NCBI RefSeq assembly: GCF_040362765.1
Contig: NZ_BAABWK010000001.1
Coordinates: 734,990 to 798,989, forward strand
Length of the DNA stretch: 64,000 bases
Origin: Pyruvatibacter sp. HU-CL02332
Lineage (GTDB): Bacteria > Pseudomonadota > Alphaproteobacteria > CGMCC-115125
Direction: 5' to 3'
Shown here: one piece after another, positions 3,001 through 53,895 of the stretch
Position numbering within the stretch: the stretch's first letter is position 1
Layout: each line of letters opens with the position of its first letter
Position numbers and translations under genes: made by a program
Notes under the pieces: model-generated
Database searches by the model: none
What the model was told of the DNA's origin: nothing
The model's input: only the letters and a program-made list of their open reading frames with translations

Positions 3001-6000
3001 ATGCAGGCGGTCTGTCCCGTACAGAAAGCTTTGATATCGCCGTTAGCGATGTGAATGAAGTTGCGACAGACATCGCTTTGGACAACACCACTGTTGCCGA
3101 GAACAACGCCGGTGCCGTCATTGGCAACCTGGCCACAACAGATCCCGATGCGGGTGATACCCACAGCTATTCAGTCTCAGACGCCCGCTTTGAGGTCGTC
3201 GATGGCCAGCTCAAGCTCAAGGATGGCGTAAGCCTCGACAGCAACGATGCAGGCACTGTCTCCATCGACGTCACGACGACGGATGCAGGCGGACTGTCTC
3301 GTACAGAGAGCTTTGACATTGCAGTCAGCAACGTCAACGAAGCTGCGACCGACATCTCTCTGGACAACACGTCCGTAGCAGAAAACGCCGCTGGCGCCGT
3401 CGTTGGTACCTTGTCCACGACAGACGCAGACGTGGGCGACACACACACTTACACGGTCTCCGACGCGCGCTTTGAGGTGGTCGACGGCGAGTTGAAACTC
3501 AAAGATGGCGTGTCCTTGGACCACGAAGCCGGTGACAGCATTGCAATCGATGTCACCACGACCGATGCCGGAGGCCTTTCATTCACAGAAAGCTTCGACA
3601 TTGCCGTTGGCGACGTGAATGAAGTCGCGACAGACATCTCGCTGGATAACACCTCCGTTGCTGAGAACGCAGCCGGTGCCGTCGTCGGCACCCTGTCCAC
3701 AACGGATGTGGATGATGGCGACACCCACAGCTATTCCGTATCCGACGCCCGCTTTGAGGTGGTCGACGGCGAATTGAAGCTGAAAGACGGCGTGTCTCTT
3801 GATCACGAAGCCGGCGATAGCCTCTCGATTGACGTGACAACCACCGACGCCGGTGGCCTGAGCCGCACAGAGACCTTCTCGATCTCAGTCGGTGATGTGA
3901 ACGAGGTCGCAACGGACATTGCGCTCGACAACACGTCTGTTGCTGAAAATGCCGCAGGCGCCGTCGTTGGAACTCTCTCCACAACAGACGTTGATGATAG
4001 TGACACCCATAGCTACAGCGTCTCAGACAGCCGCTTCGAGGTCGTCGATGGCGAACTGAAGCTCAAGGACGGCGTGAGCCTGGACCACGAGGCTGGCGAC
4101 AGCGTCTCCCTTGATGTCACCACGACCGATGCAGGTGGCCTGTCCCGCACCGAAACGTTCACGATATCCGTCGGCGACGAAAACGAAGTTGCGACGGACA
4201 TCAGCCTCGACAACACAACTGTTGCGGAGAATGCAGCCGGTGCCGTTGTGGGCACCCTGTCCACCACAGACGCGGATGATGGCGACACCCACAGCTATGC
4301 CGTGTCCGACAACCGTTTTGAGGTTGTCGATGGCGAGCTGAAACTCAAGGACGGCGTAAGCCTTGACCATGAGGCTGGCGACAGCATTTCGATCGACGTC
4401 ACAACAACAGATGCCGGTGGCCTGTCTCGCACGGAAAGCTTCGACATTGCCGTTGGCGACGTGAATGAAGTTGCGACGGACATCAGCCTGGACAACACAA
4501 CTGTGGCTGAGAATGCCGCTGGTGCCGTGGTTGGCACTTTGTCCACCACCGACGTGGATGACGGTGATACCCACAGCTATGCCGTGTCCGATAACCGTTT
4601 TGAGGTTGTCGATGGCGAACTGAAACTCAAGGACGGCGTAAGCCTTGATCACGAAGCTGGTGACAGCATCTCGATCGACGTGACCACCACCGATGCGGGA
4701 GGTCTGGCACGTACCGAGACGTTCAACATCTCTGTTGGCGACGAAAACGAGGCTGCGACAGACATTGCCCTCGACAACACGTCGGTGGCCGAAAACGCAG
4801 CCGGTGCTGTTGTTGGCACCCTGTCCACAACCGATGCAGATGACGGAGATACGCACAGCTACAGCGTCTCCGACACGCGCTTTGAAGTTGTAGGTGGCGA
4901 GCTGAAACTCAAGGATGGTGTATCGCTGGATCATGAAGCTGGCGACAGCATCTCCATTGATGTCACCACAACGGATGCGGGTGGCTTGTCCCGCACCGAA
5001 AGCTTCGACATTGCCGTCGGCGATGTGAATGAAGTTGCGACGGATATCAGCCTCGACAACACCACTGTGGCCGAGAATGCCGCGGGTGCCGTGGTGGGCA
5101 CCTTGTCCACCACTGACGTCGATGACGGTGACACCCATAGCTACAGCGTCTCCGATACCCGCTTTGAGGTTGTAGACGGTGAGTTGAAGCTGAAGGACGG
5201 CGTCTCTCTCGACCACGAGGCAGGCGACAGCGTCTCAATCGACGTAACAACCACTGACGCAGGCGGCCTGACGCGGACAGAGACGTTCTCGATCACCGTC
5301 GGAGACGAAAACGAAGTTGCAACGGACATCAGCCTCGACAACACCACTGTGGCCGAGAATGCCGCAGGGGCCGTCGTCGGCAATCTGTCCACAACTGATG
5401 TGGACGATGGCGACACCCATAGCTATGCCGTCTCGGACAACCGCTTTGAGGTTGTCGACGGCGAACTGAAGCTTAAAGACGGCGTCGCGCTCGACCATGA
5501 AGCAGGCGACAGCGTCTCGATCGACGTCACAACAACCGACGCCGGTGGCCTCTCACGCACTGAGTCCTTCAACATCTCCGTCGGCGACGTGAATGAAGTG
5601 GCCACGGACATCTCCCTGGACAACACGTCTGTTGCTGAAAATGCGGCTGGCGCTGTCGTTGGCACGCTATCCACGACAGATGCAGATGACGGCGACACCC
5701 ATAGCTACGCCGTCTCCGACAACCGCTTTGAGGTTGTCGACGGCGAACTGAAGCTTAAAGACGGCGTCGCGCTCGACCATGAAGCAGGCGACAGCGTCTC
5801 GATCGATGTCACGACAACCGATGCCGGTGGCCTGAGCCGCACAGAAACCTTCTCCATCTCTGTCGGTGATGTGAACGAGGTCGCAACAGACATCGCTCTC
5901 GACAACACGTCCGTTGCAGAAAACGCGGCAGGTGCCGTGATCGGCAATCTGTCCACCACCGATGTGGATGACGGTGACACCCACAGCTACAGCGTCTCCG

Positions 6001-40576: not shown

Positions 40577-40771
40577 CTAGAGCTTGTTGCGCGGCGGCTC
40601 ATCGCTTGGCTGATCGCTGGGCGGAAAGTCGTCGTCATCATCAAACAGGATGCGTTCCGCCGCGCCATCAAGATCATCAAACTGACCGCTCTTGAGTGCC
40701 CACAAAAAGGCGGCAAGCCCGAGCAGCCCCAGAAACAACGCAGCCGGGATGAGCATCGCCAGTACGTCCAT
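40577..40771 (-). CDS. ccoS: cbb3 oxidase maturation protein CcoS
   Basis: The 64-residue product has a single N-terminal helix (MLIPAALFLGLLGLAAFLWAL), followed by KSGQFDDLDGAAERILFDDD, the recognised CcoS pattern, and an acidic/Pro-rich tail. CcoS is needed for cofactor insertion into cbb3 oxidase. It overlaps the ccoI stop by 1 nt and is the last gene of the ccoGHIS set. Confidence 0.93.
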   Translation of the reverse strand: MDVLAMLIPAALFLGLLGLAAFLWALKSGQFDDLDGAAERILFDDDDDFPPSDQPSDEPPRNKL

Positions 40772-43017
40772 CAGTGCGCATCCTCTTTTGCGGTTTCAGG
40801 TAGCCCCATCCTGCCCCACCGTAGCCGAATGGCATTGGCCGTGACCAGAATGGACGACGATGACATGGCAATGGCCGCAATCAATGGCGTCACATAGCCC
40901 GCCACCGCGATGGGCACCGCCACCGCATTGTAGGCCAGCGATAGCCCAAAATTCTCCAGCACCAGCCGCTGGCTTCCGCGCGCCACATCAAGGGCCACGG
41001 TGACAGGCGCCAGCTCCTGTCCCTGGAACACCAGATCCGCCGCCGCCTGAGAGACATCAGCACCGGACGCAGGCGACATGGACACGTGAGCGGCCGCAAG
41101 TGCCGGGGCATCATTGAGACCATCGCCCACCATCAGCACCTTCGCACCCTGGGTCGCTAGCTCTTCAAGCCGGGCGATCTTGTCCTGTGGCAGCAAGCCA
41201 CCGGCAAAGTCTGAAATGCCAGCCTCCTGCGCCACGGCCTCCACCGTGGCCAAACGGTCGCCGGACAAAAGCACAATCTTCATGCCGCGATCAGTTGCCC
41301 AATCAATGACGGCCGATGCGTCCTCACGCAAACCATCCAGAAATCCAAACCGCACCGGAGCTGCATCTCCACAGCGGAACCATATTTCAGGTCCGGTCGC
41401 GTCACTCTCAGCGACATCGACACCACCAACGAAAGCCGCACTGCCAAGGCGCGCCGCCTGCCCCTCAACGGTGCCCATCAGCCCCTGACCGGGATGCTCG
41501 CTCACATCATCACACTGGGCGCCCACTCCTGCCGCCTGAGCCAGCCCGCGGCTCAGGGGATGGGTACTCGCCCGTGCAAGGGTTGCAGCGCGTTCGAGCA
41601 CCGTACGGTCAACACCCGCTTCATCAAGCGCAAGCCGCCCATGGGTCAGCGTGCCGGTCTTGTCGAAGACGAGCGTATCTACCTCCGCCAGCCGCTCCAG
41701 CGCATCGGAGGATTTGAGCAACACACCACGCGACAATAACCGCCCGCTTGCGACCACATGCACCACCGGCACAGCAAGCCCCAGCGCACAGGGGCAAGTA
41801 ATAATCAGGACCGCAATGGCAATCTTGAGCGAGCCGTCCCAAGCCAGACCACCCAGCAGCATCCAGCCGATAAACGTCGCTGCCGCCAGAATGTGCACAG
41901 CAGGCGCATAGACCCGTGCTGCCCTGTCAGCGATACGCACAAAGGTGTCACGCCCTTGCTCGGCGGCTTCCATCAGCCGGACAATCTCACTCAGCAGCGT
42001 CGCTTCATCTCCCTTGGTCACGCGCACCCGCAGCGGCCCGGACATATTCAGCGTTCCGGCAAAGACGTCAGCCCCCGGTGCCACCGCCACCGGTGCTGTC
42101 TCCCCGGTGATGAGGCTCGTATCCAGATCAGACCGGCCTTCTTCCACAACCCCGTCAGCAGCAACGCGCTGGCCTGTTGCAACAGCCACCACCATGCCCG
42201 GCTTCAAGGCTTCCACAGGCATCGCCCGCGCCACGCCGTCGTCATCAATCACCGTGGCCGCGTCAGCCCGCAGTGCCAGCAGGTTTTGTGCGGCCAGCGC
42301 CGCACGGCCACGCATCTTCATGTCCAGTGTGCGCCCGATCAGCAGGAAGAACAGCAGCATGATCGAGGCATCAAAATAGACGTGCTTTGCCCCGGCAATG
42401 GTCTCAGCCAGGCTCATGCCTGCCGCCAGCAACACGGCCAGCGATATCGGCACATCCATGTTCATGGCACCGACACGCAACGCCCGGACGGCCGAGCGAA
42501 AGAACGGCCGCCCCGCATAGGCAATGGCCGGCATGGCAATCAGCCCGGATATCCAATGGAACATGTCCCGCGTAGCATGCTCCATGCCGCCGGAATGACC
42601 CGCCCACACCGAGACAGACAGCAACATCACATTGGCTGCCGCAAAGCCTGAGACGCCCATGCAGGTGATGAGTTCTTTTTCATCCCGCGCCTGCTGGGTT
42701 TCCAGCGTCTTGGGATCATAGGGCCGCGCGCCATACCCCGCGCCGACAATGGCGGACACAATCTCGCGCGGGCGCACCAATGCCTGCTCAAACACCACCG
42801 TCAGTCGTTTGGTGGACAGATTGAGCCGCCCATTGGCAACACCCTCAAGCCCGTTAACCGCGCGCTCCACGCGCTTGACGCAGCCACCACAATGAACGCC
42901 ATCCACAACAAAATTGACGACGGACCCACCATCATCCAGCGCCCGCACATAGGTATCGGGAATGTCAGGAACATCCTGACCGATATCAGCACCACTGGAG
43001 ACCGAGGCATCAGCCAT
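40771..43017 (-). CDS. ccoI: Copper-translocating P-type ATPase CcoI/FixI
   Basis: The 748-residue product has an N-terminal heavy-metal domain with GVHCGGCVKRVERAV, eight membrane helices with the ion-pathway CPC in ITCPCALGLAVP, the phosphorylation motif DKTGTLTHG, and the hinge GDGLNDAPAL. CcoI/CtpA2-class pumps export copper to the periplasm for cbb3 assembly. The ATG at 43017 overlaps the end of ccoH by 8 nt; a longer frame to 43110 lies inside ccoH and is rejected. Complete for the family. Confidence 0.93.
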   Translation of the reverse strand: MADASVSSGADIGQDVPDIPDTYVRALDDGGSVVNFVVDGVHCGGCVKRVERAVNGLEGVANGRLNLSTKRLTVVFEQALVRPREIVSAIVGAGYGARPYDPKTLETQQARDEKELITCMGVSGFAAANVMLLSVSVWAGHSGGMEHATRDMFHWISGLIAMPAIAYAGRPFFRSAVRALRVGAMNMDVPISLAVLLAAGMSLAETIAGAKHVYFDASIMLLFFLLIGRTLDMKMRGRAALAAQNLLALRADAATVIDDDGVARAMPVEALKPGMVVAVATGQRVAADGVVEEGRSDLDTSLITGETAPVAVAPGADVFAGTLNMSGPLRVRVTKGDEATLLSEIVRLMEAAEQGRDTFVRIADRAARVYAPAVHILAAATFIGWMLLGGLAWDGSLKIAIAVLIITCPCALGLAVPVVHVVASGRLLSRGVLLKSSDALERLAEVDTLVFDKTGTLTHGRLALDEAGVDRTVLERAATLARASTHPLSRGLAQAAGVGAQCDDVSEHPGQGLMGTVEGQAARLGSAAFVGGVDVAESDATGPEIWFRCGDAAPVRFGFLDGLREDASAVIDWATDRGMKIVLLSGDRLATVEAVAQEAGISDFAGGLLPQDKIARLEELATQGAKVLMVGDGLNDAPALAAAHVSMSPASGADVSQAAADLVFQGQELAPVTVALDVARGSQRLVLENFGLSLAYNAVAVPIAVAGYVTPLIAAIAMSSSSILVTANAIRLRWGRMGLPETAKEDAH

Positions 43018-43552
43018 CGCTGTCGCGGCCTCCCGCCCAGATGCGTTTTTCAAGATAATAGGGCGCCGCCTCTTCGCGCTCGAGCAGCAACCGCATCTCC
43101 CAGTGACCACGTGCGGGTAACGACGCCTGTGCGCGATACACGCCCGGTGCTGTTTCAGTCAGCGGTGCCACCATGTCTTCACCGCGCACGACAGGGCGCC
43201 AGAATGTCAGATCGCCGCCAAGCCCCGTCAGGGCCGCACCATTGGCATCACGCACCTGCACCGCCACAGTGGCATCTGCGCCGTCAGGCGTTGCAGTAAA
43301 TGCCTCCTCAAAAGACACCTGCCACCCCAGCGCTTGTTGCGCGGCCGCCGCTTCCAGGCGTTCATTGTAGTCACGCCCGGTCTGATAGGCGTTCTGTGTC
43401 TCAATGCCTGAAAAGGTCGACAGCGCGATGTAGGTCATGATGCCGTTGACGGCAAAAATGACACCGAAGAACGCCACAAGCGCAGCCAGCGTATGAAAGC
43501 CGGTCCATCGGCGCTTGGCCTTGCTGGGTTTAACTGTCGCCGCCTCGGACAT
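43010..43552 (-). CDS. ccoH: cbb3 oxidase assembly protein CcoH/FixH
   Basis: The 180-residue product has one N-terminal helix (FHTLAALVAFFGVIFAVNGIM) and the FixH pattern YQTGRDYNERLEAAAAQQALGW, then a periplasmic beta-rich domain ending in GHWEMRLLLEREEAAPYYLEKR. FixH family proteins act with CcoI in copper delivery to cbb3. The ATG at 43552 has GAGGAG upstream and overlaps or abuts the ccoG stop region; a longer start at 43576 lies within ccoG. Confidence 0.92.
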   Translation of the reverse strand: MSEAATVKPSKAKRRWTGFHTLAALVAFFGVIFAVNGIMTYIALSTFSGIETQNAYQTGRDYNERLEAAAAQQALGWQVSFEEAFTATPDGADATVAVQVRDANGAALTGLGGDLTFWRPVVRGEDMVAPLTETAPGVYRAQASLPARGHWEMRLLLEREEAAPYYLEKRIWAGGRDSDG

Positions 43553-43556
43553 ATCG

Positions 43557-45110
43557 CTAGCGCTCCTCAGGACCACGGAAGGTGGTCGGGTTTTTCACCT
43601 GCAGCCCACTGGCAGTGTCGGTGATGACAAAGGCAATGTCAGCCCGCCCGTCCTCAAGCGTTTCCACCCGGTCAGCAGGAAGAGACAGGAACAGGCGCAC
43701 ATTGCGCAGCCGGTCCGATTGAACGGCGACAGGCAGCGTCTCGAGGTCACTCTCGGTCAGGGTTGAAATCCTGACACCTTCAAGCCCCTCAACACTCACG
43801 GTGAACACCCGTTCTTCCGTCACCTTGTTGAGAATCTTGACTTCATATCCATTGCGGATCGAGCCGTCAGACAGGGTCACGAACAGCGGGTTGCGATCCT
43901 TGAGGACATTCACGTCCAGCGGCGAGCGCGTAATCAGCACGGACAACATGATGGCCCCGACCACCACGATCAGCGCGGCATACAGCAATGTGCGCGGCCG
44001 CAGCAGACGCACCCGCATGGGCAGGTCTTTGGTCCGCCGGTCCATATTGTCGAAATTATCATAGGTGATCAGGCCGCGCGGGCGATCAATCTTGTCCATG
44101 ATGTCGTTGCAGGCATCAATGCACAACGCACACTGAATGCACTCAAGCTGGTCGCCATCACGAATATCAATCCCCATGGGGCACGCAACAACACACTGCT
44201 TGCAGTCGATGCAGTCACCACGGCCTTCCCACGTATCTCCCTTGCGGTGCGGCCCGCGCTGTTCGCCACGGTCAGCGCGATAGCTGACAAGGAAGGATTG
44301 ATCATCCACCAATGCCCCCTGAATACGCGGCCATGGGCACATGTAAGTGCACACCTGCTCGCGCGCGAGACCGCCCAGCAGATAGGTCGTGGACGCAAAC
44401 ACACCAATGAAGAGATAGGCAACCATGGGCGCATCCAGCGTCAGCAGGTCCCGCGCCAGCTGCGGTGCATCGGCAAAGTAGAAGACCCAGGCGCCACCCG
44501 TCGCCACCGCAATCAGCAGCCACACTGAGTGCTTGGAGACTTTCTTGAAGAACTTGCTCAGCGACATGGAAGTCTTGTCGAGCTTCAGCCTTTTGTTACG
44601 GTCGCCCTCGATCATCCGCTCAACCATGATGAAGAGGTCCGTCCACACGGTCTGCGGGCAGGCATAGCCACACCACACACGGCCAAACAGGGCTGTGGCT
44701 AAAAACAGCGCCAGCGACGCCAGCACCAGCAGGCCGGTCACGAAATAGATTTCCTGCGGCCAGATTTCGATGAAAAAGAAATAGAACCGCCGCCCAGGCA
44801 TATCCAGCAACACCGCCTGATCCGGCGCATTGGGGCCGCGGTCCCAGCGGATCCACGGCAGGATGTAATAGATGCCAAGGGTGACAGCCATCATCACCCA
44901 TTTGACGTTGCGGAAGAGGCCATGCACCAGCTTGGGGTGAATGGCCTGGCGGCTGACATACAGGGAGCGGGAGGCAGCGGAGTTCACCGCCTCAACGTCA
45001 TGCCGCTCGACCTTTTCATGCGCCTTCGCAGATGAAACGCCCGTCACATTTGCTGCAGCTTCCTGCGCAAGCGCTGCAAGACCGCCGCCGGTTTCATTCG
45101 ATGCTGACAT
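43557..45110 (-). CDS. ccoG: Polyferredoxin cbb3 accessory protein CcoG/FixG
   Basis: The 517-residue product has several membrane helices and two ferredoxin-type clusters, CIDCKQCVVACPMG and CIQCALCIDACND, each C-x2-C-x2-C-x3-C. A C-terminal immunoglobulin-like domain follows (RNGYEVKILNKVTEER). CcoG has been described as a cupric reductase that feeds copper to CcoI. AGGAGGGG lies just upstream of the ATG at 45110. It starts the ccoGHIS set, about 106 nt after ccoP, with no clear separate FNR box. Confidence 0.93.
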   Translation of the reverse strand: MSASNETGGGLAALAQEAAANVTGVSSAKAHEKVERHDVEAVNSAASRSLYVSRQAIHPKLVHGLFRNVKWVMMAVTLGIYYILPWIRWDRGPNAPDQAVLLDMPGRRFYFFFIEIWPQEIYFVTGLLVLASLALFLATALFGRVWCGYACPQTVWTDLFIMVERMIEGDRNKRLKLDKTSMSLSKFFKKVSKHSVWLLIAVATGGAWVFYFADAPQLARDLLTLDAPMVAYLFIGVFASTTYLLGGLAREQVCTYMCPWPRIQGALVDDQSFLVSYRADRGEQRGPHRKGDTWEGRGDCIDCKQCVVACPMGIDIRDGDQLECIQCALCIDACNDIMDKIDRPRGLITYDNFDNMDRRTKDLPMRVRLLRPRTLLYAALIVVVGAIMLSVLITRSPLDVNVLKDRNPLFVTLSDGSIRNGYEVKILNKVTEERVFTVSVEGLEGVRISTLTESDLETLPVAVQSDRLRNVRLFLSLPADRVETLEDGRADIAFVITDTASGLQVKNPTTFRGPEER

Positions 45111-45216
45111 TCACGCCCCTCCTAGCCGGGACAAAGATCGTCCGTCATCTATAGGGGCTCATGTGCCGGGCCTCCCCACCCGGTCATCCGCCTACAGACA
45201 GTCCATATGCAACGCT

Positions 45217-46116
45217 CTATTCACCGCCACCAAGCGAGTGAACATACAGCGCAAGTTTCGCAATGGTGGCCTCGTCAAGCCGCCCCTGCCAAGCGGGCAT
45301 GACGCCGCGCCGACTGTGAGCAATTGACGCATAGATGCTTTCTTCGTCACCGCCATAAAGCCAGATCGCGTCGGTCAGATCGGGCGCACCCAGCTCCTGG
45401 TTCCCGACGCCGCCTTCCATGTGACAGGTCACACATTGCGCACCGAAGAGCTCCTGGCCGCGCAGGGCCGCCTCTGCATCAACATCCTTGCCGGACAGCT
45501 GCAGCACATATTGCGTTGTGTCGCTGACTTCGGCCGCGGAGAAGATGCCGTCATCAAGGAACTTCGGCATGTCATTGAGCCGGGTGTCGTCATCAGCTTC
45601 CCAGCGAATGCCGTGACGCAGAGTCACGCGGATGTCTTCAAGCGTGCCGCCCCACAACCACGCATCGTCGTTGAGGTTGGGATAGCCCTTGAAGCCCTGC
45701 GCACCTCGCCCATGGCAGGCAGCGCAATTGTCACCAAAGGCACTCTCACCGCCGGCCAGCGCCACGGAATGAAGTTCCGGGTTGCCCGGCACGTCGCTCA
45801 GTTCGCCTGCCAGAATCTGATCGTCATAGACCCGCAATGCGGCCTGTGACTGTTCCACCTGCTCCGTCACAAGCGCGCGCTGGGAATAGCCCAGAATGCC
45901 CTGCGTGTAGCTGGAGGCAAGCGGCCATGCCGGGTAGAGCACCCAGTAGACGACCGCCCACAAAATGCAGGCGTAGAAGCTGTAGAGCCACCACTTCGGT
46001 AGCGGGTTATCCAGCTCGCGAATGCCGTCCCACTCATGGTCCGTGGTCTCGACACCGGTGTAGTCATCTACAAAGCGGCCGTCATCCGAGTTCTTGTTTT
46101 CACTGTTGTCACTCAT
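45217..46116 (-). CDS. ccoP: cbb3 cytochrome c oxidase subunit III, CcoP
   Basis: The 299-residue diheme subunit has an N-terminal CcoP motif (YTGVETTDHEWDGIRELDNPLP), one helix with WWLYSFYACILWAVVYW, and two CxxCH sites, NCAACHGRGAQG and QCVTCHMEGG. It accepts electrons from CcoO for oxygen reduction. It overlaps ccoQ by 4 nt. Confidence 0.95.
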   Translation of the reverse strand: MSDNSENKNSDDGRFVDDYTGVETTDHEWDGIRELDNPLPKWWLYSFYACILWAVVYWVLYPAWPLASSYTQGILGYSQRALVTEQVEQSQAALRVYDDQILAGELSDVPGNPELHSVALAGGESAFGDNCAACHGRGAQGFKGYPNLNDDAWLWGGTLEDIRVTLRHGIRWEADDDTRLNDMPKFLDDGIFSAAEVSDTTQYVLQLSGKDVDAEAALRGQELFGAQCVTCHMEGGVGNQELGAPDLTDAIWLYGGDEESIYASIAHSRRGVMPAWQGRLDEATIAKLALYVHSLGGGE

Positions 46117-46304
46117 TTGGACTGACCCCCGTTTGCCGAATTGGTCGCTGGCACATCGTCATCGTCGAGCGGCGCCATGGCCGCATGGTCAAAGCGCTGC
46201 TTGTTGCCGGGCCAAAGCGCGTAGGCAATGACACCGATGAAGCCGACAAACAGCATCACCAGGCCAATGGCCCCGCCGATACCTCTGATTTCGTCATATC
46301 CCAT
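46113..46304 (-). CDS. ccoQ: cbb3 oxidase subunit IV, CcoQ
   Basis: The 63-residue product has one membrane helix (IGLVMLFVGFIGVIAYALWP) and the CcoQ-typical ending with an acidic/Asn-rich tail. Position between ccoO and ccoP and the short length settle the call. CcoQ stabilises the oxidase. Confidence 0.9.
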   Translation of the reverse strand: MGYDEIRGIGGAIGLVMLFVGFIGVIAYALWPGNKQRFDHAAMAPLDDDDVPATNSANGGQSK

Positions 46305-46315
46305 GATGTCAGCTC

Positions 46316-47050
46316 CTAGCGCATGTTCTCGCCCTCAGCCTGATAGGCTGAGAAGTCGACAAGGGTGCCAAGCATCTGCATGTAGGCGATCAGGGCATCC
46401 AGTTCGGAGATCATCTCCGGGTTGCCGTCAAAGTCGCGGATCTGCGCCTTGGGGTACCGCGCCAGCAGCGCGTCATAATCATCCCCGAACGGGTCCACCT
46501 GTGCCTTGATGTCGGATTCGGCATTTTCAACCATCTCGTCCGTATACGGCACACCAATCAACTGGTTGGTCTTGAGGTGATCCTCAAAGCCTTTGTAGTT
46601 GAGCGGTGTCGTCGCCAGGAACGGGTAGTTCGGCATGATGCTCTCCGGCACCACCGCACGCGGATCCGCCATGTGCAGCACATGCCAGTCATCCGAGTAC
46701 TTGCCGCCGAGCCGCGCCAGATCCGGGCCGGTCCGTTTGGAGCCCCACTGGAAGGGATGGTCATACATGCTTTCCGCCGCCAGCGAGTAATGGCCGTAGC
46801 GCTCCACTTCGTCGCGCAGCGAGCGGATCATCTGGCTGTGACAGTTGTAGCAACCCTCACGGATGTAGATGTTGCGCCCCGCCAATTCCAGCGGAGAATA
46901 AGGCCGCATGCCGTCCACTTCCTCAATTGTTGAGGAGAGGAAGAACAATGGCGCGATCTGCACGATGCCGCCGATCGAGACCACCACCAGAATGGCGACC
47001 GTCAGGATCAGGGAGTTGCGCTCAAGTGTGCCGTGACTGAACAAGGACAT
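46316..47050 (-). CDS. ccoO: cbb3 cytochrome c oxidase subunit II, CcoO
   Basis: The 244-residue product has an N-terminal anchor helix and one heme-c site CYNCHSQM, with [19 protein letters not shown], the CcoO signature, and conserved MPNYPFL. It carries electrons from CcoP to CcoN. It lies 14 nt downstream of ccoN. Confidence 0.95.
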
Positions 47051-47064
47051 GTGTCTCGCCCTCC

Positions 47065-48765
47065 CTATGCCGGTGCCGCAACCAGCTCGCCCTGTGGGGC
47101 GCGGCCGGCTGTTGCATCAAGGGGTTCGCTCGCGCGGATTTCACCCTTGGCGGTTTTGTACAGATTGTAAGCCATGATCAGGGAGCCGACGACGAACAGT
47201 GCGCCCCCCAGTGCACGGATCACATAGAACGGATGCATCGCTTCCACGGTCTCAACGAAGGAGTACTCAAGGAAGCCCAGCTCATCATAGGCCCGCCACA
47301 TCAGGCCCTGCAGAATGCCCGACACCCACATGGAGGTGATGTAGAGCACGATGCCCAGCGTCGCGACCCAGAAGTGCCACTCAACCAGCGCCAGCGAGTA
47401 GAGCCGTTGACGACGCCACACCCATGGGGTGAGGCAGTAAAGAGCGCCAAAGCTCACAAAGCCGACCCAGCCCAGCGCACCGGAATGCACGTGGCCGATG
47501 GTCCAGTCCGTGTAGTGCGACAGGCCGTTCACAGCCTTGATGCTCATAAGCGGACCTTCAAAGGTGCTCATGCCGTAGAAGGCAACAGACACCACCAGCA
47601 TGCGGATCACCGGGTCCGTCCTCAGACGGTCCCAGGCGCCCGCAAGCGTCATCAGCCCGTTGATCATGCCACCCCAGGAGGGCATCCACAGCATGATCGA
47701 GAACGTCGCCCCCAGCGTCTGCGCCCAGTCTGGCAGCGCTGTGAAATGCAAGTGATGCGGACCCGCCCAGATGTAGAGGAAGATCAGCGCCCAGAAGTGA
47801 ATGATCGACAGGCGATAGGAATAGACCGGTCGCTCGGCACGCTTGGGAATGAAGTAATACATCAGCCCCAGGAAGCCGGCCGTGAGGAAGAAGCCCACCG
47901 CGTTATGGCCGTACCACCACTGGGTCATGGCGTCCTGAACGCCGGACATCAGGATGTAGGATTTGTCACCCGTGAACGACACCGGCACAGCCAGGTTGTT
48001 GACGATATGCAGCATCGCAATGGTGACGATGAAGGCGAGATAGAACCAGTTGGCCACATAGATGTGCGGCTCACGGCGACGCCACAGGGTGCCCAGGAAC
48101 ACCAGCAGATAGACGACCCACACAACGGTCAGCCACAGGTCGATATACCACTCAGGCTCTGCATATTCCTTGGACTGGGTAACGCCGAACACATAGCCGG
48201 TCGCTGCCAGCACAATGAACAGCTGATAGCCCCAGAACACGAACCACGGCGCAATGTCGCCCGCCAGCCGCGCCTTGCAGGTGCGCTGCACCACGTAGAA
48301 CGATGTCGCGATGAGAATGTTGCCGCCAAAGGCAAAGATCACAGCCGACGTATGCACCGGCCGCAGACGCCCGAAATTCAGCTCCGCAATCCCGGTCAGC
48401 AGATCCGGGTAGGCCAGCTGCACCGCAATGACGAGACCGACAACGAACCCGACAACACCCCAGAAGGTGGAGGCGATGACGCCCCAGCGGATGACCGCAT
48501 CATTGTACTGCACACCGTCAGGCGCCCGCGCGGTCGGGCCGCGCTGTAGAAAATCAAAGTGCCGGTCGCCGATCCACATGACCGCCAACAGGCAGAACAG
48601 TGTGATGAGGCCGCCATGCAGCATCATCGGACCACTGGATGCTCCGGCGATAACAAAAATGCCCAGAAAAGCCCCTGCGATGAACAGCGCAATCGCGCCC
48701 CACCCCATGGCTGTCAGTCGCCCATCATTGGCGATGGGAGGTTCTGGCGTATGTGTGTGCGTCAT
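47065..48765 (-). CDS. ccoN: cbb3 cytochrome c oxidase catalytic subunit I, CcoN
   Basis: The 566-residue multi-helix protein has the heme-copper oxidase histidines in stretches such as [54 protein letters not shown] and [18 protein letters not shown]. It is the oxygen-reducing, proton-pumping subunit. An FNR/FixK box lies about 96-110 nt upstream. It heads a cluster ordered ccoNOQP then ccoGHIS, all on one strand. Confidence 0.96.
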
Positions 48766-50075: not shown

Positions 50076-50459
50076 CTAGTGGCCACCAAGCCCGAGAAAG
50101 GTCAGCACCCCACCGACCACAAGCGCCAGCAGCCCCCAAAATCGGATGAAGTTGCCGCTCATCACCGGATTGAGAAGCCGCATGAAGGACGACCCGACAG
50201 CAATGAAGATCAGCCCTTCAATGAGTGTCGCCGCGGCCAGACCGGTGACGACCATCTCAAGTGGCGTATCAATTTTATGATGGGTCACCAGCAAAACGGC
50301 ACCAATGAAAAATACCAGCACGCCGCAGACAAAAGAAAGCCCGGCGCTTTCACGCAGATCCGTCATCATGGCCCGGCTACGGTCAGGGGTCGCAACAAGG
50401 GCAATGCCCGCAGCAAGCATGTAGAGCCCAAATCCAAGGGCAATGGCTTCAGTCATCAT
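50076..50459 (-). CDS. Four-helix membrane protein of unknown function
   Basis: The 127-residue product has four hydrophobic helices (about 5-24, 44-60, 70-92 and 104-124) with polar loops and no catalytic motif. GGAG precedes the ATG. It lies 26 nt before the threonine aldolase start and 85 nt after the DoxX gene, on the same strand, so it may belong to the end of the bufferin operon. I do not recognise the family. Confidence 0.7.
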   Translation of the reverse strand: MMTEAIALGFGLYMLAAGIALVATPDRSRAMMTDLRESAGLSFVCGVLVFFIGAVLLVTHHKIDTPLEMVVTGLAAATLIEGLIFIAVGSSFMRLLNPVMSGNFIRFWGLLALVVGGVLTFLGLGGH

Positions 50460-50544: not shown

Positions 50545-51009
50545 CTATGCGGCGTATCGCTTGGCAATCAGATGATCGAGCGACAGCACACCCGGGCCAC
50601 GAATGATGAGATACAGCATGCCAGTGGCCCACAGCAGGTGCAGGTTCCACGCACCGGGATAAACAAACGTCTGAATGACCGCCGTCATCACCAGCAGGCC
50701 CAGTGCACCAAATCGTGTGCCAAGACCCAAAATCAGCATGATCGGGAACACGTGCTCCGCAATGGTGCCCATGACCGCCGCCCAGTCGGACGGGATGAGC
50801 GGCAAAGCGTACTCATACTCGAACAGAAAATAGGTCGAGTCCTTGAGCGCAAAGCCATCAACCTTGAGCCGCGCTGACGTCCAGAAGACACCTGCCACCG
50901 CAACACGGGCGGCCACGGCAATCACCCATTCAGGCAGGGACGACATCAGCGCAATGACGCGCTGAACAAGTCCCGCCAGTCCATTGAGGGAAGTGGTTGC
51001 TGCAGTCAT
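50545..51009 (-). CDS. DoxX-family membrane protein of the bufferin operon
   Basis: The 154-residue product has four membrane helices and the DoxX features [20 protein letters not shown] and [18 protein letters not shown]-type stretches. Its ATG overlaps the bufC stop (ATGA). DoxX genes are common fourth members of bufferin (gig-like) operons; redox or membrane support of peptide export or modification is only inferred. Confidence 0.82.
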
Positions 51010-51815
51010 GACGTCACCTTTGATGTGTGGTCCGGTAGCACAAAGCTTCCGGCATTGAGCAGTTCGGCAAAAACGATCTGCGGATCGCCCTCAGGCTCTT
51101 CTTCAAACGCTGCAATCAGCGCACGGCCCAGGGTGGCACCACCCTGAACAGCACACAGAAAAGCGAACGCGCCCGGCGAGACCCGGCGCACCTCAACCTG
51201 CGCCTGCGGCCGCACCACAAAGATGCGTTCGTTGCGATCGTCTTCGGCAATTGACAGCACGCCATCTCGGTCAGGCTGGTTTGCCTGCCAGATGCGCGAA
51301 ATGGGATAAGGCGACATCAAAAGTTGATGCGCTGGCGCAAGTTCAAGCACCAACCGGTCAAGCGCCTGCTCGCCCTGCACGTCAACAAATGCCTGGAGGT
51401 CCAGCGCGGTGAGCACGTCAGCATCCGCACCGTGATAGACCTTGTGCCAGGCATGCTCCAGCCGCGCGATATCAGGCAGATAGGGCACAGAGCGGGCGGG
51501 TTCAAAGCCTACCAGGAAGCCAGCAAAGTCCGGTGCAAACCCGATCAGGGAAGCAGCATCCGGCATGGAGCGCTCGAAATAGGCACGTGCCACGGCACGG
51601 AAAAACTCTTCACCTACAAGACGCTGGCAAACCGGATACAGCGCCGCCAGTGCATCTGTCAGGCTGGACGCGACATTATTGCGATAGACATCAAGCCGCG
51701 CACGATGGGGCAGCGGTTCATTGCCGATGGCCGCCAGGTCCAGCATCACCTGGCTGTTGGCCGGGTCGCGCAAGGCCGACGCAAAACTGGTCTGCAATTC
51801 AGCGAGCCGGGACAT
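51006..51815 (-). CDS. bufC: DUF2063 partner protein BufC
   Basis: The 269-residue product starts with the DUF2063 N-terminal helical domain ([55 protein letters not shown]) and has a C-terminal alpha/beta part. In other bacteria DUF2063 proteins act as partners of DUF692 enzymes in RiPP modification, presenting the precursor. It overlaps bufB by 17 nt and DoxX by 4 nt. Confidence 0.88.
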
Positions 51816-52788
51816 GACTCACCTCCTTTGTTGAAGTCTGTTTCAGCTTGCCGCGCGCGGTTGCAACTTCGCTCAGCAACACATCAAGCGCAGGCACGTC
51901 CTGGTCCCACTCAACAAGCGTTGGGCGCGGGCCAGCGACAGCGAGGAAATCGTCAAACAGCGTCCAGACATCCCCTGAGGGTGCCGAGCCATGGTCATCA
52001 ATCTTGAGGGTGACGCCGCTGCGGTCATCATCGGAGTGGCCACCCAGATGAACTTCGCCAACAGCCTCAACATCAAACCGATCAAGGTAGTCACGCGGCG
52101 ACGTTTGAAGGTTATGGGCGCTCACCACCACATTGTTGATGTCGAGCAGCAACCCGCATCCCGTGCGTTGCGCCATTGCGGAGAGAAACTCCGTCTCCGG
52201 AATATCGCTTTCTTCAAACGCCAGATAGTTGGACGGATTCTCGATGAGAATTTGGCGGCCCAGCGTCTCCTGTGTCTGGTCAACGTGGCGGCAGACAATG
52301 TCCAGCGCCTCTGATGTCAGCGTCACCGGCAGCAGATCATTGAAATAGGTGCCGCCATTTTCGCACCAGGCCAGATGCTCTGACACGAGGGCAGGCTCAT
52401 AGCGATCAACAAGCGCGCGCAGATTTGCCAGGTGGTCACGGTCCAAAGGCCCCGCCCCACCAATCGACAATCCAATGCCATGGATCGAAAGCGCAAACCG
52501 CTCGCGGATAGCGGTGAGGTACCGGTGCGGCGCACCGCCGTCGCTGAAATAGTTTTCCGCATGCACCTCAAAGAAGTCCGCAGCACTGCCTTGCGAAAAG
52601 GCCTCAGACAAAATCTGAGAATAGTGCTGCGGCTTCAAAGAGGTACCCGCAGACGCAAGCTCAAGCCCGGGCGAGTCAAAAGCAGACTGCCCGGATGACC
52701 GCACGGATGTATTGGTCGCGAGGGGGGTGCGACCTGCAGCAGGGGTGTCAGCTGCAAACATCTCAGGGGAATGGGTCATCCGGGACAT
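51799..52788 (-). CDS. bufB: DUF692 multinuclear iron enzyme BufB (MbnB-like)
   Basis: The 329-residue product has the TIM-barrel DUF692 motifs with metal ligands: FEVHAENYF, IHGIGLSIGG, SEHLAWCENGG, LIENPSNYLAF, CGLLLDINNVVVSAHN, GEVHLGGHSDD, DHGSAPSGDVW and VEWDQDVPAL. MbnB relatives convert Cys to oxazolone/thioamide; in bufferin systems BufB with BufC modifies Cys of the precursor. The gene starts 49 nt after bufA1. The first 50 residues are an unusual Ala/Ser/Thr-rich extension; ATGs at 52788 and 52779 are both possible. Confidence 0.9.
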   Translation of the reverse strand: MSRMTHSPEMFAADTPAAGRTPLATNTSVRSSGQSAFDSPGLELASAGTSLKPQHYSQILSEAFSQGSAADFFEVHAENYFSDGGAPHRYLTAIRERFALSIHGIGLSIGGAGPLDRDHLANLRALVDRYEPALVSEHLAWCENGGTYFNDLLPVTLTSEALDIVCRHVDQTQETLGRQILIENPSNYLAFEESDIPETEFLSAMAQRTGCGLLLDINNVVVSAHNLQTSPRDYLDRFDVEAVGEVHLGGHSDDDRSGVTLKIDDHGSAPSGDVWTLFDDFLAVAGPRPTLVEWDQDVPALDVLLSEVATARGKLKQTSTKEVSHVPAR

Positions 52789-52837
52789 GCTTCTTACTCG
52801 TTGAACTGGAGCGGTGCGTTGTTCGACGTGTCAGGCG

Positions 52838-53134
52838 TTACGCAGGCACGTTGCTGTCGCTGTCTTCAAGCGACCCATTGCCGAACGGTGTTTCGATGGA
52901 TGTGCAGGTGCCGGCAGGAACCAGCTTCCAGGCATTGGACTGATAATCGATCGTGGATGTGCCCTGGCATGAGGTGCCCGGACCGGCAGCGCAGTCGTTT
53001 TCACCGGCAAGGGCGACGCCGTAGCATTTTTCCATGTCAGCGGCGGCAGCAGGTGTGGCGGTCAGTGCGCCCATTGTGAGTGCGGCGGACAGGGCGCCGG
53101 CAGCGGCAAAGGCAGTTTTGGTTGCGGTCTTCAT
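52838..53134 (-). CDS. bufA1: Bufferin precursor peptide BufA1 (DUF2282)
   Basis: The 98-residue product has a Sec-type signal ([19 protein letters not shown]... ending TPAAAAD, about residue 33), then [35 protein letters not shown] and [11 protein letters not shown]. The four Cys at residues 37, 48, 56 and 77 and the NAW/GTC context match DUF2282 bufferin precursors. The peptide would be modified by BufBC, exported and bind copper. AAGAGGAGA lies ahead of the ATG at 53134. A longer frame to 53218 lacks support. Confidence 0.88.
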
Positions 53135-53895
53135 GGGGTGTCTCCTCTTGAGGTCATGGGGATCAGTGAGTTGGTCAGCGGTGTCTCTCACCGCCCCCAC
53201 AACCTCGGAAACCAGCACCCAAAAAGGAACTCACGAAGCCGTCGCGTGGCCTCAAACACCTGTGATGACCGAGTGAAGACGTGCAACCGCTCCATGTCCG
53301 GCAGTCAGAACAGCTCGAGGACAGGCCACGCCGCGGTCATATGCGGGCGGTCTGTCGCCATGACGGATTCGGGAAAATGGTACGCAAGAGGCCCGCAGGC
53401 CGGACAAACGCGGCGGGGGACACCGCCGACCCGCGAGCACCCTTGCGACACTTCGACAGTGCCAAACCCGCCAAAAATTGGGAAATCACGACCCGTGTGA
53501 GTGCAGTAAAACGAGTGTGAGACCGCGTGAACAGGGCCGTTAACCGTGTTTACGCCCGGTTTTCAGCGGATTTTGGCGCGAAAACAGGCCAAAAACATGG
53601 AAAATTAACCTTTGCCACTGCGTGAAAAAGGTCATCATTCCTGACCTTGATTCAAAGGGCCCGTCTCTGGCACTATCCCCCGGCTTCGCAAAAGCCTGTC
53701 GTGACGTATTCATGCAGGCACAGCAAAGCGTGGGCAAAGGGGGCCGCCGCCTCAAATGAGCGGCAGCCAGACAGAGGACCTCCTGGGAGAGCGTCCCGGT
53801 CAGGTTCACCCTCAAGCCCTCACGGCAAAGGCTTTCGTAGTCGACACCCTCAGGTGAGCACATTGCGCTCACGCAAATCCAAAGGGGGGCGGCTC

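Follow-up and report, generated by a model that had tools for sequence, protein, structure and literature searches.

A probable Buf1-type bufferin operon and a conserved upstream RNA hairpin in a Candidatus Phaeomarinobacter-like alphaproteobacterium

Our analysis of a 64,000-nucleotide stretch of alphaproteobacterial DNA (hereafter, the window) revealed four adjoining genes that very probably constitute a Buf1-type bufferin (captophorin) operon, the product of which would be a thiooxazole peptide that binds periplasmic copper and buffers excess metal. Gene identity, gene order, the Cys pattern, the folds, the catalytic residues, and purifying selection all come from the analysis presented here. 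Translation of the window places bufA, bufB, bufC, and bufD, in that order, on the minus strand at positions 50545-53134, as follows:

52838..53134, minus strand: bufA, Buf1/DUF2282 precursor (98 aa, ATG start; PF10048, E=9.9e-26)
51799..52788, minus strand: bufB, MNIO (formerly DUF692) bufferin maturase (329 aa; NF050167 match)
51006..51815, minus strand: bufC, DUF2063 + RRE-like partner protein, PME-type 1 (269 aa; PF09836)
50545..51009, minus strand: bufD, DoxX membrane protein (154 aa; PF07681, E=1.8e-15)

A sequence-only reading of this DNA had proposed the same succession of a precursor, a DUF692 enzyme, a DUF2063 partner, and a DoxX protein on a single strand, and both translation and Pfam bear it out. 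Specifically, all four Pfam matches exceed the curated cut-offs (DUF2282, E=9.9e-26; MbnB_TglH_ChrH, the former DUF692, E=9.7e-97; DUF2063, E=1.3e-22; DoxX, E=1.8e-15), and the spacing that had been given, a gap of 49 nt between bufA and bufB followed by overlaps of 17 nt (bufB-bufC) and 4 nt (bufC-bufD), matches the translation exactly. The nearest named relative is a Candidatus Phaeomarinobacter MAG (L007), and the operon belongs to an alphaproteobacterium resembling Ca. Phaeomarinobacter, a candidate genus whose described member is associated with brown algae (PMC4110880). All four genes occur in each of the four genomes of the genus, a relative of BufB was found in 73 of the 190 sampled genomes of the class, and about 60 relatives' loci generally follow the order A-B-C(-D). 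The presence of the whole set throughout the genus, together with the same order in most relatives, argues that the operon is not a chance assembly.

BufB scores 356.5 bits against the NCBIfam model NF050167, MNIO_BufB ("MNIO family bufferin maturase"; cut-off, 310), and it falls below the cut-offs of the HvfB, ApyH, MbnB (47.5 versus 325 bits), and ChrH models. With this score, and with Cys spacing and gene order as in relatives, the earlier proposal of a bufferin-type operon is supported. The AF2 model of BufB (mean pLDDT 87) adopts an MNIO barrel, with the DUF692 structure 3bww as its best match, followed by TglH and MbnB. An alignment of 47 BufB sequences shows full or near-full conservation of the metal and catalytic residues expected of an MNIO enzyme; among these residues, D264 and H266 are invariant, and N218 is nearly so. 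Mapped through an alignment to 3bww, N218, D264, and H266 would correspond to HvfB N175, D242, and H244, each of which is essential for HvfB activity (PMC13419390). The AF2 model of BufC (pLDDT 92) resembles TglI (8hci/8hi7, chain A) and NGO1945 (3dee) along most of its length, and BufC is, as modelled, a DUF2063+RRE-type partner.

The precursor likewise retains the four Cys (Cys37, 48, 56, and 77) that had been noted from the sequence, and their spacing of 11/8/21 is near-universal among the ~60 relatives' loci, with rare departures to 7 or 9, and to 22. The N-terminus of BufA (MKTATKTAF...) resembles, as judged by eye, a type I Sec signal spanning about residues 1-31. A decayed operon, or a precursor that stays unmodified as a non-bufferin DUF2282 protein, seems to us highly improbable, given that the four reading frames are all intact, that mature BufA differs from two genus members by 15-20 silent codon differences and 0-1 amino acid changes, and that the dN/dS of the BufB core is about 0.07-0.10 in those genus comparisons where it is calculable. 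Further, the whole genome has no DUF2282 gene other than bufA and no MNIO gene other than bufB. Judged by these codon comparisons, mature BufA is under strong purifying selection and almost frozen. As a separate observation, a precursor frame in a Parvularculaceae locus (L013, about 3665-4063, plus strand) has seven Cys with a spacing of 11/8/46/11/8/21, as if a bufferin domain had been duplicated in part.

The mode of action of such a precursor can be drawn from published systems. Buf1 peptides are reported to carry Cys-derived thiooxazoles, to bind copper in the periplasm, and to be exported by a Sec signal (PMC12452194); modification falls on the two central of their four Cys, while the outer pair is joined in a disulphide (PMC12452194). 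The Sec signal also serves as the leader, according to later work cited in a further study (PMC13419390). From these published relatives, we infer thiooxazole chemistry, export, copper binding, and protection for the operon studied herein. In the mechanism we propose, the N-terminal Sec-like signal of BufA probably also serves the enzyme as its recognition sequence, and a cytoplasmic BufB-BufC complex, composed of an iron oxidase and its recognition partner, would oxidise Cys48 and Cys56 to 5-thiooxazoles. The modified BufA would then be exported, a disulphide would form between Cys37 and Cys77, and the mature peptide would bind periplasmic copper, thereby buffering the excess metal, with BufD (DoxX) presumably acting as an accessory membrane protein. 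By analogy with the published Buf1 model, Cys48 and Cys56 are the expected thiooxazole sites, and Cys37-Cys77 is the expected disulphide. Only the central pair, and not all four, is expected to be modified, which fixes the Cys to be tested.

One of the closest known systems is the buf1 operon CC3254-CC3257 (BufA1-BufB1-BufC1-BufD1) of C. vibrioides, with which the present operon shares its four domains, their order, and the four-Cys Buf1 precursor (PMC3511200 Table 1, PMC12452194). The two differ in that CC3254-CC3257 is under SigF/NrsF control, while here NrsF is absent and no SigF site was seen, and in that BufB here has an N-terminal extension of 46 residues and a genus-specific RNA hairpin lies upstream. 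Among other captophorins, the systems for fontiphorin, gonophorin, and oxazolin (Fon/Ngo/Hvf) have in common with it the pairing of an MNIO enzyme with a DUF2063/RRE partner, which places 5-thiooxazoles on exported Cys peptides (PMC12668002). However, their precursors contain EGKCG/Lys-Cys repeats, in contrast to a DUF2282 protein with four single Cys, and BufB lies under the NCBI cut-off for HvfB. The enzymes of methanobactin (MbnBC) and pearlin (TglHI) biosynthesis share the fold of BufB, and the partner TglI shares that of BufC, but these systems differ in precursors, chemistry, and product, and BufB, at 47.5 bits, is far below the MbnB cut-off of 325. The bufferin system is already well described, and the operon here is an ordinary one; what it adds to the known bufferin producers is one clean genus, probably marine and algae-associated.

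The metal that the peptide serves deserves separate consideration, as chromate and cadmium also induce the buf operons of C. crescentus (PMC3511200), and gold induces 'gig' operons (PMC12452194), such that the physiological metal here could differ. The surroundings of the operon bear on the same question. In the genus, as far as contigs reach, the order is gltB, divergent from bufABCD, then a threonine-aldolase-like gene, ccoNO(..)P, and fixGHI. In the window, ccoN, ccoO, ccoP, fixG, fixH, and a fixI-type metal P-type ATPase gene lie at 40771-48765 (minus strand), closely downstream of buf and on the same strand. The cbb3 oxidase is a copper enzyme, and fixI encodes a metal P-type ATPase. One could envisage that a thiooxazole peptide is made but acts chiefly in response to a different metal or stress, whether gold, chromate, cadmium, mercury, or oxidative or sulphur stress, or in handling copper for the adjacent cbb3 oxidase, with bulk protection from copper not its main task. 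We consider this unlikely: although buf adjoins the copper oxidase cluster and its P-type ATPase wherever a contig of the genus extends there, in relatives beyond the genus no cbb3 cluster was seen within 1.5-4 kb of buf, which makes the neighbourhood likely incidental, and the characterized Buf1 peptide binds Cu and protects against it (PMC12452194).

Two further neighbours were observed. First, between bufD and the aldolase gene, a small protein is encoded at 50076-50459 (minus strand) with a weak match to DUF2065 (20.6 bits; cut-off, 24.3), and tblastn found it in two of the three remaining genomes of the genus. Second, a divergent gltB also adjoins bufA in four alphaproteobacterial loci outside the genus (L042, L043, L044, and L057), making gltB|buf a recurring arrangement.

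The N-terminal extension of BufB had been singled out as an unusual Ala/Ser/Thr-rich stretch of about 50 residues. It is real, comprising residues 1-46, of which 20 are Ala, Ser, or Thr, with the conserved core starting at residue 47, and it is longer than in other relatives, where a usable BufB start mostly lies 10-25 residues ahead of the core. The word "unusual" must be tempered, as the extension is a genus-wide trait; its occurrence in all four genomes, three of which keep the sequence MSRMTHSPEM, argues against an accident of one start-codon choice. This persistence and the excess over the usual length could also be taken to mean that the 46 residues form a specific functional module, acting in export timing, precursor docking, or membrane tethering. 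We doubt this, since the dN/dS of the extension is 0.36-0.78, as opposed to about 0.07-0.10 for the core, its length varies, it has no family match, and nearly all of residues 1-36 are modelled as disordered (AF2 pLDDT <50). A weakly constrained stretch that is modelled as disordered offers no evidence for a new function, and we take the extension to be a tolerated tail that may carry a short conserved tip.

A further probable departure from known systems concerns regulation. In C. vibrioides/Caulobacter, buf operons are driven by SigF, which is held by NrsF, from promoters of the form GTAACC-N16-CGAA (PMC3511200). None of the four genus genomes contains NrsF, which was found in the Caulobacter control, and the 700 nt upstream of bufA contain no good or conserved SigF-type promoter, only poor, non-conserved matches. 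Together, these two results suggest that buf regulation here differs from that in Caulobacter, and the SigF/NrsF pair is probably not the regulator in this genus. That SigF/NrsF control of bufferins is not universal could matter more than the operon itself. Searches upstream of bufA recovered no CueR-like dyad, although a CueR gene sits elsewhere in the genome, no recognised copper-responsive promoter, no sigma-70 promoters, and no terminator-like sites above the level of shuffles.

Between bufA and the divergent gltB lies 1 kb of DNA in which conserved islands alternate with unconserved sequence. Two of these islands are listed here, on the bufA strand:

53215..53265, minus strand: conserved island (TCACAG.TGTTTGA...GACGGCTTCGTGAGTTCC), 80-130 nt upstream of bufA
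53383..53447, minus strand: covarying RNA hairpin of 65 nt, 250-320 nt upstream of bufA (26 bp, 5-nt loop)

The hairpin, which carries a one-sided 7-nt bulge (CGUUUGU), folds with a z-score of -5.0 on the minus strand versus -1.0 on the plus strand, and its G-U pairs hold on the minus strand only. Each of the three distinct genus sequences preserves all 26 pairs; nine of the pairs vary, and four have changed on both sides, whereas slid controls paired in 42-50% of cells. With three distinct sequences, the statistics are modest, and 23 of 500 shuffles reached the covariation score. The apical 29 nt are invariant in the genus. These observations support a genuine structured RNA on the same strand as bufA. 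The element is single-copy in its own genome and present in all four genus genomes, as opposed to none of 381 other genomes of the class. Rfam gave no credible match for the bufA upstream region or the genus loci, hairpin included; other buf loci yielded only weak matches, as chance would give (E 0.2-5); and no viral contig contained the hairpin core, nor any plasmid the element. In four other genomes, the gltB-bufA gap has long stable hairpins in places, with no shared element, though these are sliding-window maxima and a weak comparison.

The island nearer bufA, conserved in the genus and flanked by unconserved stretches, may be a promoter or leader element of bufA. It is tentatively possible, albeit not our expectation, that it and the hairpin are parts of a hitherto unrecognised regulatory RNA of the genus, either a leader or a small RNA, that controls bufferin production in place of SigF/NrsF. 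The genus always keeps bufA and gltB together, and the hairpin may act on buf, on gltB, or elsewhere. An undescribed conserved RNA hairpin beside the operon could matter more than the operon, and we regard it as a lead. A role for the nearer island as a regulon-wide promoter was rejected, its exact match in each genome being at the buf locus only. Finally, a further conserved island at 53625-53654 contains the inverted repeat AAGGTCA-N7-TGACCTT, which on the plus strand precedes a TTGATT...CACTAT-like stretch, and may be the gltB promoter with its operator.
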